Shown one piece after another: positions 1,616-26,440 of a stretch of DNA of 38,132 nt (position 1 is its first letter; each line of letters opens with the position of its first letter). The notes beneath the pieces were generated by a model, which was not told the DNA's origin, did not search any database, and saw only the letters and a program-made list of their open reading frames with translations. This stretch comes from Thermoplasmatota archaeon (lineage in GTDB: Archaea; Thermoplasmatota; E2; DHVEG-1). The stretch is taken from assembly GCA_029762575.1 (NCBI GenBank), contig JARVGL010000007.1:1-38132 (forward strand), given 5' to 3'. A program made the translations under genes and the position numbers.

Positions 1616-3250
1616 TTAAGGGGAAGTAATCACTCCTAACAGTTTTGAAAGATCATCCTCCACTTCTGTATTTGGCATGATCCCAAATGTTTCAACAAGT
1701 ACCTGTAACAAACCAGGTGATACAAACGCGGGTAAGCAGGGTCCTAGCATTATATTCTTAACGCCTAACGATAACAATGATAATAATACGAGTACTGCTT
1801 TCTGTTCATACCATGCGATATTATAGATGATGGGGAGATCATTGATACCGACACCAAGAGCCTCAGCAAGTTTTTGCGCGATCACTACTAGTGAATATGA
1901 ATCATTGCATTGTCCCGCATCAAGTATGCGGGGAATCCCATCGATATCACCTAGGGTAAGCTTGTTATATCGATATTTCGCGCAACCTGCGGTAAGAATC
2001 ACCGATTCTTTAGGTAATCGTTTCGCAAACATAGTGTAATACTCACGGTCTTTATGGCGACCATCACAGCCAGCCATGACTACGAATTGTTGTATCTTTC
2101 CATCTTGAACTGCTTTTAGCACCTTATCAGCTAATTGTAACGTGGCATGATGAGCAAAACCTATCGTTATATCCCCCTGCTCGATCTCTAAGGGTGGCAG
2201 GCATTCTTTTGCATGAGCTATAATGCTTGAGAAATCCTTTTCACCATTTTGTATCCGGTCAGGGATATGTTTTAGACCTGGAAAGCCAACTATGCTTGTT
2301 GTATATACTCTATCTTTATAGGAGTCCTTTGGAGGTACTAGGCAATTTGTGGTCATAAGGATCGGTCCATTGAAGGAATCGAATTCTTCTTTTTGTTTCC
2401 ACCAGGATCCACCGTAATTACCAATGAAATGATCATATTGTTTGAAAAATGGATAGGCATTAGCTGGAAGCATCTCCCCATGACTATACACGTCAATTCC
2501 TGTGCCTTTGGTTTGTTTTAATAATTCTTCCAGATCTTTCAGATCATGACCACTGATAAGAATGCCAGGTTTATCGCCTACGCTGATAGAGACAGATGTT
2601 ATCTCAGGATTTCCATAGGTACTGGTATTTGCCTTGTCCAGCAACGCCATGGTCTGAACCCCGATCCTTCCGCATTCAAGCACCATGTTTGTTAGCATAT
2701 CACCTGTTACATCAGCTTGTAAGGTACTGGCTAAGGCTTGTTGCATGAACAATGGGATATCATCATCATGATATCCTAAAGCAGTGGCATGATGATAATA
2801 TGCTGCGATACCCTTCAAACCATATATCAAGAGTTCCTTTAATGATCTAAGATCCTCATGAGCTTCAGATAATACACCAACGTTTTTTGCTTTATCAAGC
2901 ATGTCCTCTCGGTTAGCAGGATACCAAGATACGGCATCATGGTCAAATGAAGCATTGGTTTCCTTATTAACGGTCTCTCGAAATTGGATGGCTTTATCTA
3001 TTTCAGCTAAGAAATAATTAGCATCAAAATTCACATTGGTAATAGTTGAGAACAATCCACAAGTGATGAACTCATCAACTTCTCTTGTGGATAACCCTTG
3101 TTTTTTCTTCTGTAGATTGACCGTTGATAAACCTTTTAAAAGATAGATGTAGAGGTCTTGAAGTTCTGCAACATCACTCTTCTTTCCACAGACGCCGATA
3201 GAAGTGCACCCAATTCCTTTTGCTGTCTCCTGGCATTGATAACAATACAT
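1616..3250 (-). CDS. hcp: Hybrid-cluster protein (hydroxylamine/NO reductase)
   Basis: A 544-residue hybrid-cluster protein, the usual length for the anaerobe type. The N-terminal Cys motif binds a 4Fe-4S cluster (C3, C6, C15, C21). The hybrid 4Fe-2S-2O cluster ligands lie in [31 protein letters not shown] and [11 protein letters not shown]. Members reduce hydroxylamine in vitro, and in Escherichia coli Hcp acts as a high-affinity NO reductase and protein S-nitrosylase. It sits 15 bases downstream of a ferredoxin gene on the same strand, with an HxlR regulator divergent from that pair. The expected flavoprotein partner Hcr is absent, and the ferredoxin may fill the electron-donor role. The function is therefore probably nitrosative or oxidative stress defence. 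Confidence 0.95.
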
Positions 3251-3265
3251 ATTTCTTCCTCCGTT

Positions 3266-4096
3266 CTATATCCATTCTTCTTTTACAATTTCTCCTCTGA
3301 TGTTTACCATGATGTGTTTAATAGGGATCAGTCTAGATGCTTGTTTTCTCGCGTTCTGAGCAAGCAATAAGAGTCCATTACAGCAGGGCACCTGCATGGT
3401 CATTACTGTTAGAGTGTTTATCTTTGCAGTATCAATAAGCTCGATAAGCTTTTGAACATAGATATCACGATTTGTATCTAGCTTTGGGCAAGCGATAGCA
3501 AGGGTTTTTTTAGAGAGGAATCGTTGATGGAAATCACCGACTGCATAGGCAACACAGTCCGCAGCTAGTAACAGATCACTACCTTGGAAAACGGAGGCAT
3601 CCGGAGAGATCAAATGCATTTGCACTGGCCACTGTTGTAAATGGGATCCCTGAGTGTTCATTATTGGTTTCGAAATACTGAGATCAATCGATTGAGCACT
3701 CGGACATCCTTCCGGATAGAAATGTGCTTTTTTTTCTTGCTCAAAAAATATATCGATATTGTTTTCCTTCAAATATTCTAACGCCTCAGCTAGATATGTG
3801 GTTTCTCCATGATCTCGGAGATGTTTGAGATGGGCTATAATTGTGTTCTCACCTTGTTTCACTATGTTTTTCATAACCTTTTTTTCATCATAGACCTTAG
3901 CTTCACGTTCAGTGATACTAATCGCACCTTTGGGGCAATGACCAAGACAAGCGCCAAGTCCATCACAGAAGATATCACTGATGAGACGAGCTTTCCCATT
4001 GATGATCTGTATCGCGCCTTCAGGACAGTTTGGGATACATGCACCGCAGCCATCACATTTCTTTTCATCGATGTTGATTATCTTTCTAGTTGCCAT
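3266..4096 (-). CDS. 4Fe-4S ferredoxin-type protein, probable electron partner of Hcp
   Basis: A 276-residue protein with an N-terminal ferredoxin domain. The first cluster motif is complete (C14, C17, C20, C24). The second (C44, then Leu at 47, C50, C54) lacks one Cys. The CDGLGACLGHCP form occurs in a recognised group of anaerobe ferredoxin proteins, so I do not read it as damage. The remaining 200 residues contain further cysteines, including a CC pair in QVPCCNGL, and hydrophobic strands, but no domain I can name. The gene is immediately upstream of hcp and almost certainly in the same transcript. Repeated GTATAC palindromes lie in the divergent promoter region shared with the HxlR regulator. 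Its role as donor to Hcp is inferred from position. Confidence 0.85.
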   Translation of the reverse strand: MATRKIINIDEKKCDGCGACIPNCPEGAIQIINGKARLISDIFCDGLGACLGHCPKGAISITEREAKVYDEKKVMKNIVKQGENTIIAHLKHLRDHGETTYLAEALEYLKENNIDIFFEQEKKAHFYPEGCPSAQSIDLSISKPIMNTQGSHLQQWPVQMHLISPDASVFQGSDLLLAADCVAYAVGDFHQRFLSKKTLAIACPKLDTNRDIYVQKLIELIDTAKINTLTVMTMQVPCCNGLLLLAQNARKQASRLIPIKHIMVNIRGEIVKEEWI

Positions 4097-4116
4097 AACA
4101 CATCATTTACTATCAA

Positions 4117-4178
4117 TTGTATACAAGGTATAGTATGTATACAAAGGTATTTATAGATACGAGTTTCTAAATGTATAC
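4117..4178. promoter_or_regulatory. Divergent promoter with three GTATAC palindromes
   Basis: The 80 bases between the ferredoxin-hcp pair and the HxlR gene hold three copies of GTATAC at 4119-4124, 4137-4142 and 4173-4178. The first is extended to TTGTATACAA (4117-4126) and the second to TGTATACA (4136-4143). Their starts are 18 and 36 bases apart. A TATA box (TATTTATAG, 4148-4156) lies between the second and third copies and fits a rightward start near 4178-4180. The arrangement suggests that HxlR binds here and controls both directions. This is inference from layout. Confidence 0.6.
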
Positions 4179-4179
4179 T

Positions 4180-4539
4180 ATGGATGAGAACTGTACAGTC
4201 TATAAAACGATGGATTTCATCTCAAAGAAATGGACGCTTCTAATACTCTTAGAACTCTACAAAGGCGGCAAAAAGAGAAAACGATACACGGAGATCAAGA
4301 ACAAGTTACAGGATGTCACACCAAAAGTACTTTCTGAACGATTAAAAGAACTGGAATCAGAAGGGTTGATCATAAGAAACATCGATACCTCACAATTCCC
4401 CGTAAAGGTCGAATACGGACTTACAGAAAGTGGTCTTGATTTCATACCAGTCATCAGCATGATGAAATCATGGGCATTGAAATGGAAACCACATAACAGA
4501 CTCTGTGAGAGTGTCGATTGTAGAAACTGTGAACTATGA
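4180..4539 (+). CDS. HxlR-family winged-helix transcriptional regulator
   Basis: A 119-residue HxlR (MarR-related) DNA-binding protein: the N-terminal segment CTVYKTMDFISKKWTLLILL, the recognition region around TPKVLSERLKELESEGLI and the wing near FPVKVEYGLTESG are all typical. Members often sense oxidants, electrophiles or aldehydes through cysteines. Here there is an N-terminal Cys in the usual sensing position and a C-terminal Cys cluster (LCESVDCRNC) that could add redox or metal sensing. An ATG nine bases upstream (4171) is in frame, but it is only 19 bases from the TATA box centre and lies inside a GTATAC palindrome, so I choose the ATG at 4180, giving a nearly leaderless transcript. 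It is divergent from ferredoxin-hcp and probably controls it. Confidence 0.85.
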   Translation: MDENCTVYKTMDFISKKWTLLILLELYKGGKKRKRYTEIKNKLQDVTPKVLSERLKELESEGLIIRNIDTSQFPVKVEYGLTESGLDFIPVISMMKSWALKWKPHNRLCESVDCRNCEL

Positions 4540-22953: not shown

Positions 22954-23595
22954 TTATGGTTGTTGCTCGGGATGATACGCAACATGGTTCTCATCCCATA
23001 GTTGGAGGCTTTCCTGCATGATGCCCTGGAGGAACTCAAGACGTTTTTCATCTGTATTGATATTGAGTGTTCCATAGAGACTTGTATAATATGGTTTGAT
23101 GATGCCGCTGTCATAGCCAACGGTGGCTATGGTAAACATCGGTAACCCTCCGATATGGTCTTTGTCATAGACGAAAAAAGCATCGATCCTCTCTTTTATA
23201 GCATGATCGATGTTCGTATAATAGTAGTGGACGGTTTGATTGTTATAGCTGAGTTGATAATAGATCATCTCCTCTTTTCCAAAATCAATAGAGAAAAGAT
23301 CCTTAATGACCGGGTACATGACATCGCAGCCATAACAGGCATCCTCGCTGAAATGAAGGAAGACAACACCCGTTTTAAGGTTTTCCAACACATAATCCGT
23401 ATGAGGTTGATTATGGGCTGTTTCAAAGGTATACTCCGATGAAGTTAATGGTTCTAATTTAATGCAACTGAGGCAGAGCACCTGAACGATGCTTGTATAG
23501 ACATCATCGTAGATAGTTGTTGTCGCTATCATCGTACATCCTGATAGAACAATAAGACCTGCAACTGCTATTTGTATCAATTGGTTTTTTTTCAT
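22954..23595 (-). CDS. Thioredoxin-like lipoprotein with two CxxC motifs
   Basis: A 213-residue exported protein. An N-terminal hydrophobic segment ends in the lipobox LSGC with C20 as the likely lipidated Cys. Two CxxC motifs follow: CLSC at 41-44, before the thioredoxin fold, and CYGC at 87-90 in VVFLHFSEDACYGCDVMYP, the thioredoxin active-site position. A Pro in GLPMFTI is the expected cis-proline. The frame is open upstream into the preceding gene, but the ATG at 23595 lies five bases after that stop, with GTGATC as ribosome site. It is the last gene of the five-gene thiol/electron-transfer unit. Function is probably envelope disulfide reduction or electron relay, with the substrate unknown. 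Confidence 0.75.
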   Translation of the reverse strand: MKKNQLIQIAVAGLIVLSGCTMIATTTIYDDVYTSIVQVLCLSCIKLEPLTSSEYTFETAHNQPHTDYVLENLKTGVVFLHFSEDACYGCDVMYPVIKDLFSIDFGKEEMIYYQLSYNNQTVHYYYTNIDHAIKERIDAFFVYDKDHIGGLPMFTIATVGYDSGIIKPYYTSLYGTLNINTDEKRLEFLQGIMQESLQLWDENHVAYHPEQQP

Positions 23596-23599
23596 TTGA

Positions 23600-24421
23600 T
23601 CACTTTTCATAATGGATAAGGTCTTTTGGACACACCTCGATACATTTTCCACAGAGGATACATTCCGGATCACGGTTGAGATGTATCACATCGATACCCA
23701 TAGGGCAGATGTTTGAACATGCATTGCAACGGAGACATTCCTTTTGAAATGTTTTTTCTTCAACGCGTGCAACATGAAGAAGACTTATCTTATTGAATGG
23801 AGCAAGAAGTGCTCCGAGGGGACAGAAATATCGACACCATCCTCGTTCAATGGTAAAAATTAGGATAGTAAATAAGATGAAAATGATAGATGCTATCAGG
23901 AAATAGGAACTTGGGACAAATTTACCCCAGAAGATACTCAATGTGGGGAGAGTCCCAGTTAAAAAACCGATGGGGCAGATATCAGTGAACATGAAACCGA
24001 TGAGTGCGCTTGTGAGAAATACGAATCCAATAAGGACAAAATATTTTGCATATCGCAGGTAGTGTTCAAGAGGGTGATGTCCAAGTCGTTTCGCTAGCGG
24101 CATCTTCTTGATCTTTCGTGCAACCTTTGCTGTTAGTCTCTGGAGAAGACCTATGGGGCATGCCCATGCACAGATGCCACGACCAGTGAGAACCCCGACA
24201 AACCCGAGGATAAGAAGCGGATAGGTGAACAGTTTCCATTTGAAATTATTCTCAAAGACACTTAGTTCAAGTGCTCGTAATGGACAAGCTGATGTAGCTG
24301 CAGGGCAGGCATTACAATAAAAAAAAGGAAAGCAAAACCCTGTTTTGACACCAAATGGTCTAAGGTTTGCTGCTAAAAAAATAAGAATTTGAGTGAGGAA
24401 TCGTTTTCGTTGGAAATTCAT
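23600..24421 (-). CDS. NapH/MauN-like membrane ferredoxin
   Basis: A 273-residue polytopic membrane protein with Fe-S sites. An N-terminal cysteine group (C30, C36, C39, C46) is followed by transmembrane segments at about 64-81, 126-146 and 174-190. Two CxxxCP motifs close to membrane segments (CAWACP at 84-89, CRYFCP at 196-201) are typical of the NapH/NosR/RdxA group. The C-terminus has two 4Fe-4S motifs (C229-C232-C235-C239 and C254-C257-C260-C264). Such proteins pass electrons between cytoplasm or quinone and exported redox proteins. It lies three bases after the PGF-CTERM-like gene and overlaps no neighbour. It probably moves electrons to the lipoproteins encoded beside it. Confidence 0.85.
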   Translation of the reverse strand: MNFQRKRFLTQILIFLAANLRPFGVKTGFCFPFFYCNACPAATSACPLRALELSVFENNFKWKLFTYPLLILGFVGVLTGRGICAWACPIGLLQRLTAKVARKIKKMPLAKRLGHHPLEHYLRYAKYFVLIGFVFLTSALIGFMFTDICPIGFLTGTLPTLSIFWGKFVPSSYFLIASIIFILFTILIFTIERGWCRYFCPLGALLAPFNKISLLHVARVEEKTFQKECLRCNACSNICPMGIDVIHLNRDPECILCGKCIEVCPKDLIHYEK

Positions 24422-24424
24422 CTC

Positions 24425-24934
24425 TTATCGTCTTCGCCTAAACAAAATAAACGATATAAAGATTGTTGCAAAGGCAAATACGACGAGATCAAAACCAGGG
24501 GTTCCGTTGGCAGATCCACCGTTATTTGATGGTTTTTCAGATAATGTTACCTTTGTTAATTCAAGATATTTTATCCACTCTCCATTGTTCTCAACGATAA
24601 GAGTGAATTCAATATATGTTGCTTCACTGTGTTTAAGGGTGAGGGAGGCTTCATAGGTATAGGCAGATTTTTGGGTCATTGAGACATTGGAATCATCAGG
24701 GTAACAAAGACCAAGATTACCATTACATTCCTGAACATGGATATAGACGTTCGTCACATCGATATCAGCGATATCTGCAGTAAATGTTACCGTAGATTTA
24801 GGAGCGGGTTTTTCAGGGTTCAATGTAACGGTTGGTTGGGCTGATGCGAAAACGATACTACTAGCAGTAGAGAGAAGCATAAGTAAGAGAACTGCAAAGA
24901 TGATCGTTTTCTTTTTTTCATATTTATTCTTCAT
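24425..24934 (-). CDS. Exported protein with a PGF-CTERM-like sorting tail
   Basis: A 169-residue surface protein. Residues 1-32 form a signal peptide. The middle (33-130) looks like one Ig-like beta domain with only two cysteines, C70 and C77 (ECNGNLGLC), which could form a disulfide. After a Ser/Asn/Gly linker the tail has TPGF (145-148), a hydrophobic helix and four Arg, the tripartite form of PGF-CTERM signals processed by archaeosortase A. No archaeosortase gene is in the window. It is set between TlpA-like and NapH-like genes on the same strand. Its role is unknown: it may be a surface redox partner or an anchor. Confidence 0.75.
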   Translation of the reverse strand: MKNKYEKKKTIIFAVLLLMLLSTASSIVFASAQPTVTLNPEKPAPKSTVTFTADIADIDVTNVYIHVQECNGNLGLCYPDDSNVSMTQKSAYTYEASLTLKHSEATYIEFTLIVENNGEWIKYLELTKVTLSEKPSNNGGSANGTPGFDLVVFAFATIFISFILFRRRR

Positions 24935-24996
24935 AGGGCATACACCTCGTATTTTATCCTGTAATTTTCCTTTTGTTTTTATGTGTTGTTATTTGT

Positions 24997-25557
24997 TCAT
25001 ATGATTCCATCGATCTTCTCTTTGAGGGTTATTAGTTCCCCGGTCCATCCGTCAGGGAATTCTGAGAAGAAGCTAAGACCATTATGTTCCCAGTAGATGT
25101 TTCCTTTTTGATCAAAGATAACGAGTTTAGGTATGGTCTCTGAAGGATTGTAATCCTTCAAGCTATCGAGTTGTTTTGCAAATACCCAGTCAAGATCGTA
25201 TCCATACAATGCAAATTCGTCGAGGAATTCTTGAATAAGGCTAACACTTTCTCTAGGGTCTGTATTAATGGAAAGGATCTCGAATTGGTCATTAGGATAG
25301 AATTGATAGGCTTTCCGTAGCTCAAGCATTTGATATTGGCAGGGGCTGCACCAGGTTGCCCACAGGTCCATGATGACGACCTTTCCTCGATAATCCTTTA
25401 ATTGTTTGACCGTTCCATCTAAAAGCGTAAAGGAGAAATTATGACCTGTATCCGTCTGATCCGCATCGTTTCCATCTGATGTCCCAGTGCAGCCTGAAAG
25501 GAGAATAAGGGAGAGGAAGAGGGATGCAGAAAGGACGGCAAGAAGATTTTTTTTCAT
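24997..25557 (-). CDS. TlpA/ResA-like thiol-disulfide lipoprotein
   Basis: A 186-residue exported thioredoxin-fold protein. The signal segment ends in LLLSGC with C23 as the lipobox Cys, followed by an acidic spacer. The fold begins at about residue 41 (FSFTLLDGTVKQLKDYRGK) and the active site is ATWCSPC (C70, C73). The cis-proline is in ETIPKLVIF. TlpA/ResA proteins reduce disulfides outside the membrane, for example on cytochrome c or secreted proteins. No c-type haem motif or CcdA/DsbD protein is encoded here, so its electron source is open; the NapH-like protein is a candidate. Confidence 0.9.
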   Translation of the reverse strand: MKKNLLAVLSASLFLSLILLSGCTGTSDGNDADQTDTGHNFSFTLLDGTVKQLKDYRGKVVIMDLWATWCSPCQYQMLELRKAYQFYPNDQFEILSINTDPRESVSLIQEFLDEFALYGYDLDWVFAKQLDSLKDYNPSETIPKLVIFDQKGNIYWEHNGLSFFSEFPDGWTGELITLKEKIDGII

Positions 25558-25586
25558 CTGAACAAATCAATCCTTTTATTCTTTTA

Positions 25587-25997
25587 TTAGATATGTAAAG
25601 CTAATTTTGCCATTAACATCTGTTTTGGCATGGCGCCTACTATCTTATCTACAAGCTTTCCGTTTTTGAATATTAGCAGGGAGGGTATGCTCATGATCCC
25701 GTAGTCCATTGCTGTTGACTGGTTGTTGTCGACATTTAGTTTTCCAAAGACGACTTTTCCTTGGAGTTCTTTAGCGAGATCTTCGACGATTGGTGCAATT
25801 GCGCGACATGGTCCACACCATGGTGCCCAGCAGTCGACTACGACGGTGTCGTATTGTTTGATTTTATTGTTAATATCGGCATCGGTCATTTCTATCGGCG
25901 TATTTGGCATTTGTTCCATTTTCTTTTCACCACTTAAATAACGGTTTTTTAATTCTTCGAGCTTTTTCTTTTTGATGGCGTTGAGTTCATCATCCAT
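25587..25997 (-). CDS. Thioredoxin with a charged N-terminal extension
   Basis: A 136-residue cytoplasmic thioredoxin with active site APWCGPC (C61, C64), preceded by the strand TVVVDCWAPW and followed by the cis-proline region MSIPSLLIF. The first 35 residues form a charged helix (MDDELNAIKKKKLEELKNRY) of a kind seen on other archaeal thioredoxins. It is the first gene of the leftward five-gene unit, 29 bases before the TlpA-like gene. A TATA-like TTAAATA (about 26023-26029 on this strand) predicts a start near 26001, a nearly leaderless transcript. It may feed electrons to the exported proteins or serve general cytoplasmic reduction. Confidence 0.93.
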   Translation of the reverse strand: MDDELNAIKKKKLEELKNRYLSGEKKMEQMPNTPIEMTDADINNKIKQYDTVVVDCWAPWCGPCRAIAPIVEDLAKELQGKVVFGKLNVDNNQSTAMDYGIMSIPSLLIFKNGKLVDKIVGAMPKQMLMAKLALHI

Positions 25998-26047
25998 TGG
26001 TTACTATTATGGTGGAGGTAGTATTTAACGTTTGTGCATAATTTTAA

Positions 26048-26090
26048 CACAACCATTATAAACCCATGTATACTATATACCTGTGTATGA
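26048..26090 (+). promoter_or_regulatory. Promoter of the HTH regulator with a GTATA-N3-TATAC palindrome
   Basis: A TATA box ATTATAAAC (26055-26063) predicts transcription beginning near 26084, three bases before the ATG at 26087. Between them lies GTATACTATATAC (26068-26080), a perfect GTATA-N3-TATAC inverted repeat, well placed to block transcription when bound. Its first half, ATGTATACTAT, is identical to bases 4171-4181 in the HxlR promoter. A weaker pair TTGTG-N11-CACAA spans 26032-26052. Confidence 0.6.
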
Positions 26091-26440
26091 AGATAACACC
26101 CCTTCCAAAGAACATGCAATGTGAAGAGGCCATCAAATGTGTCTTTGACCTCAACAAACTTGATATAAGAGTATACAAGGAATTGAAACGGATCGGGGAA
26201 GAACGGGCAGATGCGCTTGCATTAGTGTTAGATAAAGAACGTAGTACTGTTTATCGGTCTCTACAGAAACTCACCGATGCAGGTATATGTAGGAAGATGA
26301 GAAGGAGTATTGAACAAGGTGGTTATTATTATACCTATCAATGTAATGATATCTCTAATATCCAAAAAAAAGCATTTGACTGTCTGGATTCCTGGTATCA
26401 ATCGGTCAAAGAGACGTTACAACTTCTAACTGATGAATAG
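26087..26440 (+). CDS. TrmB-like winged-helix regulator
   Basis: A 117-residue DNA-binding protein with one winged-helix domain: LDIRVYKELKRIGEERADALALVLDKERSTVYRSLQKLTDAGIC spans about residues 25-68, typical of TrmB-type N-terminal domains. A short helical tail follows. Three cysteines (residue 12 in MQCEEAIKC, residue 18, and the later CRKM and YQCND) could give redox sensing. The in-frame ATG at 26066 is only about seven bases from the TATA box, so the real start is ATG 26087. It is divergent from the thioredoxin unit and probably represses it, itself, or both. Confidence 0.75.
   Translation: MKITPLPKNMQCEEAIKCVFDLNKLDIRVYKELKRIGEERADALALVLDKERSTVYRSLQKLTDAGICRKMRRSIEQGGYYYTYQCNDISNIQKKAFDCLDSWYQSVKETLQLLTDE

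Follow-up and report, generated by a model that had tools for sequence, protein, structure and literature searches.

The 38,132-nucleotide stretch analyzed here (the window; contig JARVGL010000007.1 of a Thermoplasmatota archaeon, assembly GCA_029762575.1) carries a five-gene unit, trx-tlpA-pgf-napH-lp5. This unit probably (at roughly 60%) encodes a DsbD-like reductive thiol relay in which an Fe-S membrane protein of the NapH type replaces the membrane domain of DsbD or CcdA. The textbook route for thiol-reducing power across the membrane is the CcdA/DsbD fold; if the assignment is true, a conserved Fe-S system would provide another way, alongside that fold, to export this reducing power. The original prediction, made from the sequence of the window, had the NapH-like protein pass electrons to extracytoplasmic thiol proteins in a system free of CcdA. 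The first part is well supported by the gene order in relatives, by gene fusions, by outer cysteines seen only in NapH proteins linked to lp5, and by a genome of the same genus with a DsbD membrane domain beside a pgf-like protein. Freedom from CcdA does not extend across the lineage.

A conserved gene unit

The five genes are co-directional on the minus strand, separated by about 3-62 nt; a winged-helix gene diverges from them. This arrangement of five leftward genes with small gaps and a divergent regulator had been described, and the labels given to its members (thioredoxin, TlpA-like, NapH-like, winged-helix) are borne out by Pfam and NCBIfam matches. Neither database assigns the products of pgf and lp5 to a family.

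Relatives of the napH product were compared at 41 Thermoplasmata loci, two of which come from one metagenome-assembled genome, so that about 40 species are represented. A further sample comprised 60 related genomes, 47 of which contain napH, the window's own genome counted. At all 41 loci lp5 directly follows napH, and the full order trx-tlpA-pgf-napH-lp5 is kept at 32; several of the other nine end at contig edges. Genes outside the unit are mostly not common to these loci (sulfhydrogenase in one, a PRC-barrel gene in five, the regulator in 13). In the more distant families of the class lp5 and napH stay paired, and a pgf-like gene lies nearby. The five-gene set is a real conserved unit, its order recurring in about 40 species, far beyond chance. 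A comparison of neighbours in relatives had been proposed as the check on the module, differing neighbours being the result that would count against it, and the recurring order favours a module.

Fusions elsewhere in the phylum tie three of the five families, NapH, lp5 and pgf, physically together. In genomes G303 (locus L128, 5248-8130) and G339 (L129, 5133-7925) a single chain of 930-960 aa joins NapH, the lp5 thioredoxin domain and a pgf-like domain, which score 292, 102 and 48 bits in G303 and 284, 112 and 27 bits in G339. In the L128 chain NapH occupies aa 4-269, lp5 aa 276-454 and the pgf-like domain aa 806-941. G245 and G243 have a pgf-like region fused to the lp5 domain, adjoining NapH.

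The NapH variant and its partner proteins

The product of napH (23600..24421, minus strand) is a membrane protein with four transmembrane (TM) segments, two cytosolic CxxxCP motifs and two C-terminal [4Fe-4S] motifs (Fer4_5, E=3e-12; NapH_ model TIGR02163, E=1.5e-27). It scores 96.8 bits against TIGR02163, below the curated cut-off of 213.05. The canonical features of NapH are present: C84/C88 and C196/C200 of the CxxxCP motifs and the eight ferredoxin cysteines are invariant in the alignment of the class. In addition, the protein has the predicted outer cysteines C36 and C46, plus C149, C30 and C39. C36, C46 and C149 are common to all 44 NapH sequences of the class. The more distant NapH proteins linked to lp5 have C36 and C46 as well (9/9), and the position of C149 is Asp in some of them. 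None of 12 other NapH proteins, from Bathyarchaeota, Bacillus relatives, other bacteria and E. coli, has C36/C46; in E. coli NapH the two positions are Ser and Asp. One NapH protein (L132) has both cysteines though no lp5 lies within about 5 kb.

Because the TM1-2 and TM3-4 loops are poor in Lys and Arg (0.66 and 0.20 per 10 residues; the TM2-3 loop has 2.85), C36/C46 and C149 are predicted to lie outside the membrane. The napH product is a NapH variant with two extra, predicted-outer cysteines that are tied to lp5 linkage. Partners of the periplasmic nitrate reductase or methylamine dehydrogenase kind are absent from the unit in the window, and none recurs at the 41 loci. Likewise, none of the five unit proteins has the FMN-binding domain PF04205; an ApbE-like gene stands beside the unit only at L002.

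The last gene, lp5, extends on the minus strand from 22954 to 23595 or 23610, where its start abuts or slightly overlaps napH; the listed GTG at 23673 is too early. Its product is a signal-anchored protein of predicted thioredoxin fold with a membrane-proximal CLSC, an active-site CYGC and an invariant (cis-)Pro153. In the homologue alignment C42, C45, C88, C91 and P153 are invariant, hence both CxxC pairs are; one pair adjoins the single N-terminal helix and the other lies inside the thioredoxin fold. The AF2 model has a pLDDT of 90, its top Foldseek matches are overwhelmingly thioredoxins (best E 9e-4), and the CxxC at the first helix together with the cis-Pro loop places the predicted fold in the thioredoxin superfamily. 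Of the earlier description as a lipoprotein with two CxxC motifs, the motifs stand; the lipoprotein part is rejected as a feature of the family, the lipobox Cys being present in 1/42 homologues.

Two further members have well-known relatives. The first gene of the operon, trx (25587..25997, minus strand), encodes a cytosolic thioredoxin with WCGPC and no signal sequence (PF00085, E=2.3e-29; TIGR01068, 117.9 bits, passing the cut-off of 96.8). The product of tlpA (24997..25557, minus strand) is an extracytoplasmic TlpA/ResA-like thiol-disulfide oxidoreductase with WCSPC. It matches PF08534/PF00578 (Redoxin/AhpC-TSA) at E=2e-14 and the ResA model at E=1e-17, under the cut-off of the latter; its lipobox Cys is found in 27 of 35 homologues.

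The product of pgf (24425..24934, minus strand) is an exported Ig-like surface protein with a C70-x6-C77 pair and a C-terminal PGF-type membrane anchor (TPGFD-TM-RRRR). C70, C77, G147 and F148 are invariant columns and the PGF motif is nearly invariant. The PGF-CTERM model PF18204 matches 5/36 members (best 5.8e-5), the protein of the window itself being unmatched. The sequence around the cysteine pair, QECNGNLGLCYPDD, is similar to that of the active loop in E. coli nDsbD, QGCADAGFCYPPE. In hhalign the match of pgf with nDsbD lies above all 200 shuffles, also with the Cys heptad kept (p ~0.003), and covers only 17 columns at a probability of 3-10%. Since this is a local match around the cysteine pair at low probability, pgf is not claimed to be a proven homologue of nDsbD.

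The strictly conserved pgf pair could also be that of a metal-binding client instead of a carrier. The module would then serve the maturation of one surface metalloprotein, holding the cysteines of its client reduced for cofactor insertion, as TlpA/ResA does for cytochrome c or CuA, and the TlpA/ResA homology fits such a role. Against this, no oxidase or haem-protein gene is part of the unit, its five proteins have no CxxCH motif, and the occurrence of the pgf-like domain in one chain with NapH and lp5 suggests a relay part. We consider metalloprotein maturation very unlikely.

Proposed relay and the direction of electron flow

In the proposed relay, the two [4Fe-4S] centres of NapH would receive electrons from a low-potential donor in the cytosol, namely ferredoxin, perhaps together with the thioredoxin encoded in the unit. 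Electrons would cross via the CxxxCP cysteines to the outer C36/C46 (C149), and from there pass to the membrane-proximal CLSC of lp5 and on to its thioredoxin CxxC. This would reduce TlpA and the C-x6-C dithiol of the Ig-like pgf, and these two could act on disulfides of surface or secreted proteins. The window's own genome encodes a ferredoxin:thioredoxin reductase beta subunit and a thioredoxin reductase-like protein, which makes reduced cytosolic thioredoxin and ferredoxin plausible donors. The best thioredoxin-reductase match in this genome (L169, 824-2443) is a protein of 539 aa whose N-terminal half is thioredoxin-like with CPYC, an AhpF-like layout. The model makes sharp predictions on few cysteines, namely C36/C46 of NapH, CLSC and CYGC of lp5, and C70/C77 of pgf.

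The strongest clue to the function of the NapH variant comes from the same-genus genome G001, where the DsbD membrane domain stands beside a pgf-like protein. This genome has no match to the NapH variant; a thioredoxin-like lipoprotein, a TlpA~DsbD_TM fusion and a pgf-like protein follow each other in a row (L142, 3-2424). A parallel operon of a thioredoxin-like lipoprotein and a TlpA~DsbD_TM fusion is also found at L104-L107, with a pgf-like surface protein in some genomes. DsbD_TM (PF02683) occurs in 17 of the 60 relatives and is absent from the window's own genome (94% complete).

Alternatively, the module could work in the oxidative direction: lp5 and TlpA would take electrons from the thiols of newly exported proteins, NapH would hand them to a quinone or a cytosolic acceptor, and disulfides would be formed as by DsbB/VKOR. 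VKOR is absent in all 60 genomes, which leaves an oxidase otherwise unaccounted for, and bacterial NapH is regarded as a quinol dehydrogenase (PMC8238504). Yet the known cases of TlpA/ResA-type WCxPC proteins and of DsbD_TM systems work reductively, with DsbD_TM here found beside a pgf-like protein; moreover, the unit co-encodes a cytosolic thioredoxin and the host organisms are anaerobes. Electron transfer from thiols to ferredoxin is also uphill at usual potentials. An oxidative role seems unlikely.

Candidate clients

If the module exports reducing power, exported C25 cysteine peptidases, enzymes that require their cysteine in reduced form, are a suggested client. Gingipain-like C25 peptidases were found in all 47 napH genomes, often with 10-30 matches (21 in the window's own genome, where one inspected peptidase has a signal peptide). 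None of the five genomes without C25 has napH (Fisher p=2.4e-4); this association comes from few lineages and carries no correction for ancestry. For albumin digestion, gingipains and interpain depend on reducing conditions, which increase their digestion (PMC4582931). Exported C25 peptidases have been recorded in this group of archaea and in its sediments (PMC6461988, PMC6752024), and in estuary sediment they make up a large share of the predicted secreted peptidases (PMC6752024). A surface thiol reductant would suit the life style of C25-rich archaea; if the proposal is true, it would explain how abundant protein-digesting sediment archaea keep their thiol-dependent exported proteases active. 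Clostripain C11 showed no link as a client and is absent from the own genome.

In distant families, exported proteins of Omp28/thioredoxin-like type, whose CxxC lies close to the N-terminus, are encoded near the lp5-napH pair or NapH (L090, 6691-8619; L097, 6575-8620; L130, 2239-3186); these are possible further relay members or clients. In one family a membrane protein of 174-175 aa with CSACTLP follows NapH (L130, 5606-6133; L131, 4070-4594). It resembles a CcdA-type half, but the L130 copy has no Pfam match.

Weight of the reductive reading

Several points weigh against a reductive relay of this kind. The sequence leaves the direction of the electrons unfixed, and a quinone-coupled oxidase is possible. 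Fifteen of the 47 napH genomes also carry DsbD_TM, so there is no simple replacement of one system by the other. A strict replacement of CcdA is rejected on this ground, and the predicted lack of CcdA/DsbD is true of the own genome and not of the lineage. The structure model of NapH is weak just at the outer cysteines (residues 27-44 mostly at pLDDT <50; poor around C30-C46), and a Foldseek search with it gave nothing usable. There is no Pfam-level link of pgf to the N-domain of DsbD, PF11412 matching 0/36 pgf members. Finally, eight C25-bearing genomes have no napH, five of them being less than 75% complete.

In its widest form the proposal would define a class of transmembrane disulfide reductase with a new mechanism. 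At C36/C46 a NapH-type Fe-S protein would turn one-electron transfer from ferredoxin into thiol chemistry with two electrons, and the CcdA/DsbD fold would have no part in this. Such a reductase would be widespread among Thermoplasmatota and would serve cysteine proteases outside the cell. We put this forward tentatively, its chances being somewhat short of even. No description of a NapH-thioredoxin module in archaea was found in the open-access literature searched.

Neighbouring genes

The sulfhydrogenase next to the unit is incidental. The original prediction had connected the unit with it and with sulfur; neither link is borne out, and linkage to the sulfhydrogenase is rejected given its single occurrence among the 41 loci. 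In the same-genus locus L002 (8537-13382) the module is directly followed by an ApbE-like lipoprotein gene and genes resembling RnfC, RnfD, RnfG and RnfE. Rnf as an obligate donor is likewise rejected, because the RnfD/NqrB family occurs in 4/60 related genomes, the own genome not among them.

These neighbours bear on the view that the module transfers electrons terminally to an acceptor outside, be it sulfur, polysulfide, iron or another one at the surface, the thioredoxin-like proteins being carriers in a respiration-like sink for ferredoxin electrons. A sulfhydrogenase lies near the unit in the window and at L003, the Rnf operon comes after lp5 at L002, and bacterial NapH-like proteins serve respiratory reductases (PMC8238504). 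However, no terminal reductase gene is in the unit or recurrently adjoins it, and both the hydrogenase and Rnf are as rare as stated above. Such a sink is quite unlikely.

Farther away in the window (1616-4539), a gene resembling that of the hybrid cluster protein and one encoding a ferredoxin domain lie together with an HxlR-like regulator in divergent orientation.

Regulator and operator

The divergent gene reg (26066..26440, plus strand) encodes a Sta1/Lrs14/TrmB-like winged-helix regulator (NF053606, E=7e-18, 64.6 bits against a cut-off of 80; PF01978, E=4e-10). Between reg and trx an operator palindrome, TAATGGTTGTG-N11-CACAAACGTTA (26022..26058), abuts the TATA-like box of the trx promoter. 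The consensus upstream of trx is TAATGnTTGTG-N11-CACAAACGTTA-nATA, set against this box. Across the loci the palindrome tracks an adjacent reg: it is present at 14/14 loci with and 0/20 without (one of the 20 being incomplete at its end). In the own genome the site upstream of trx is the sole match with 0-2 mismatches. No regulon beyond the operon was found there; the other matches have 3 mismatches and are no commoner than in the reversed control. The occurrence of the operator only beside reg and the single site in the own genome suggest that reg acts locally and is probably autoregulated. Cys19, Cys75 and Cys106 of reg are conserved in 12-14 of 14 homologues, pointing to possible redox or metal sensing. 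In some relatives without the regulator a small glutaredoxin-like CxxC protein is encoded upstream of trx (L021, 5218-5475; L026, 5209-5466).

Comparison with known systems

According to Meheust et al. 2021 (PMC8238504), NapH-like proteins serve flavinylated proteins as modular conduits in the membrane, and DsbD proteins form a class parallel to them. With NapGH, NosR and PceC the module shares the four-TM core, the two CxxxCP, the two C-terminal 4Fe-4S motifs and the role of a modular conduit for extracytosolic redox partners (PMC8238504). In contrast to these, it has no FMN-binding domain and no nitrate, nitrous oxide or dehalogenase partners; its partners are thioredoxin-fold and Ig-like dithiol proteins. 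Other NapH proteins also differ in that the extra outer C36/C46 are absent.

The TlpA~DsbD_TM system (L104-L107, L142) resembles the module in its thioredoxin-like lipoprotein partner, in the pgf-like protein that sometimes accompanies it, and in its occurrence in related genomes including the same genus. Its membrane domain, however, is of the classical CcdA type with a cysteine pair, whereas the module has Fe-S centres.

The likeness to DsbD lies in the set of parts and their roles: a cytosolic thioredoxin, a membrane conduit, an outer thioredoxin-fold domain and an Ig-like domain, also outside, that bears a short loop of the form Cys-x(n)-Cys (CADAGFC in E. coli, CNGNLGLC in pgf). The outer thioredoxin-fold domain with CxxC expected of a DsbD-like system is found in lp5 (CYGC, Pro153, predicted fold). 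Unlike DsbD, the module has as its membrane part not PF02683 but an Fe-S protein from the unrelated NapH family, sequence homology of its Ig-like domain to PF11412 could not be demonstrated, and its parts are split into separate genes in this lineage. In G303 and G339 the outer parts and the conduit are joined in one chain, as they are in DsbD.

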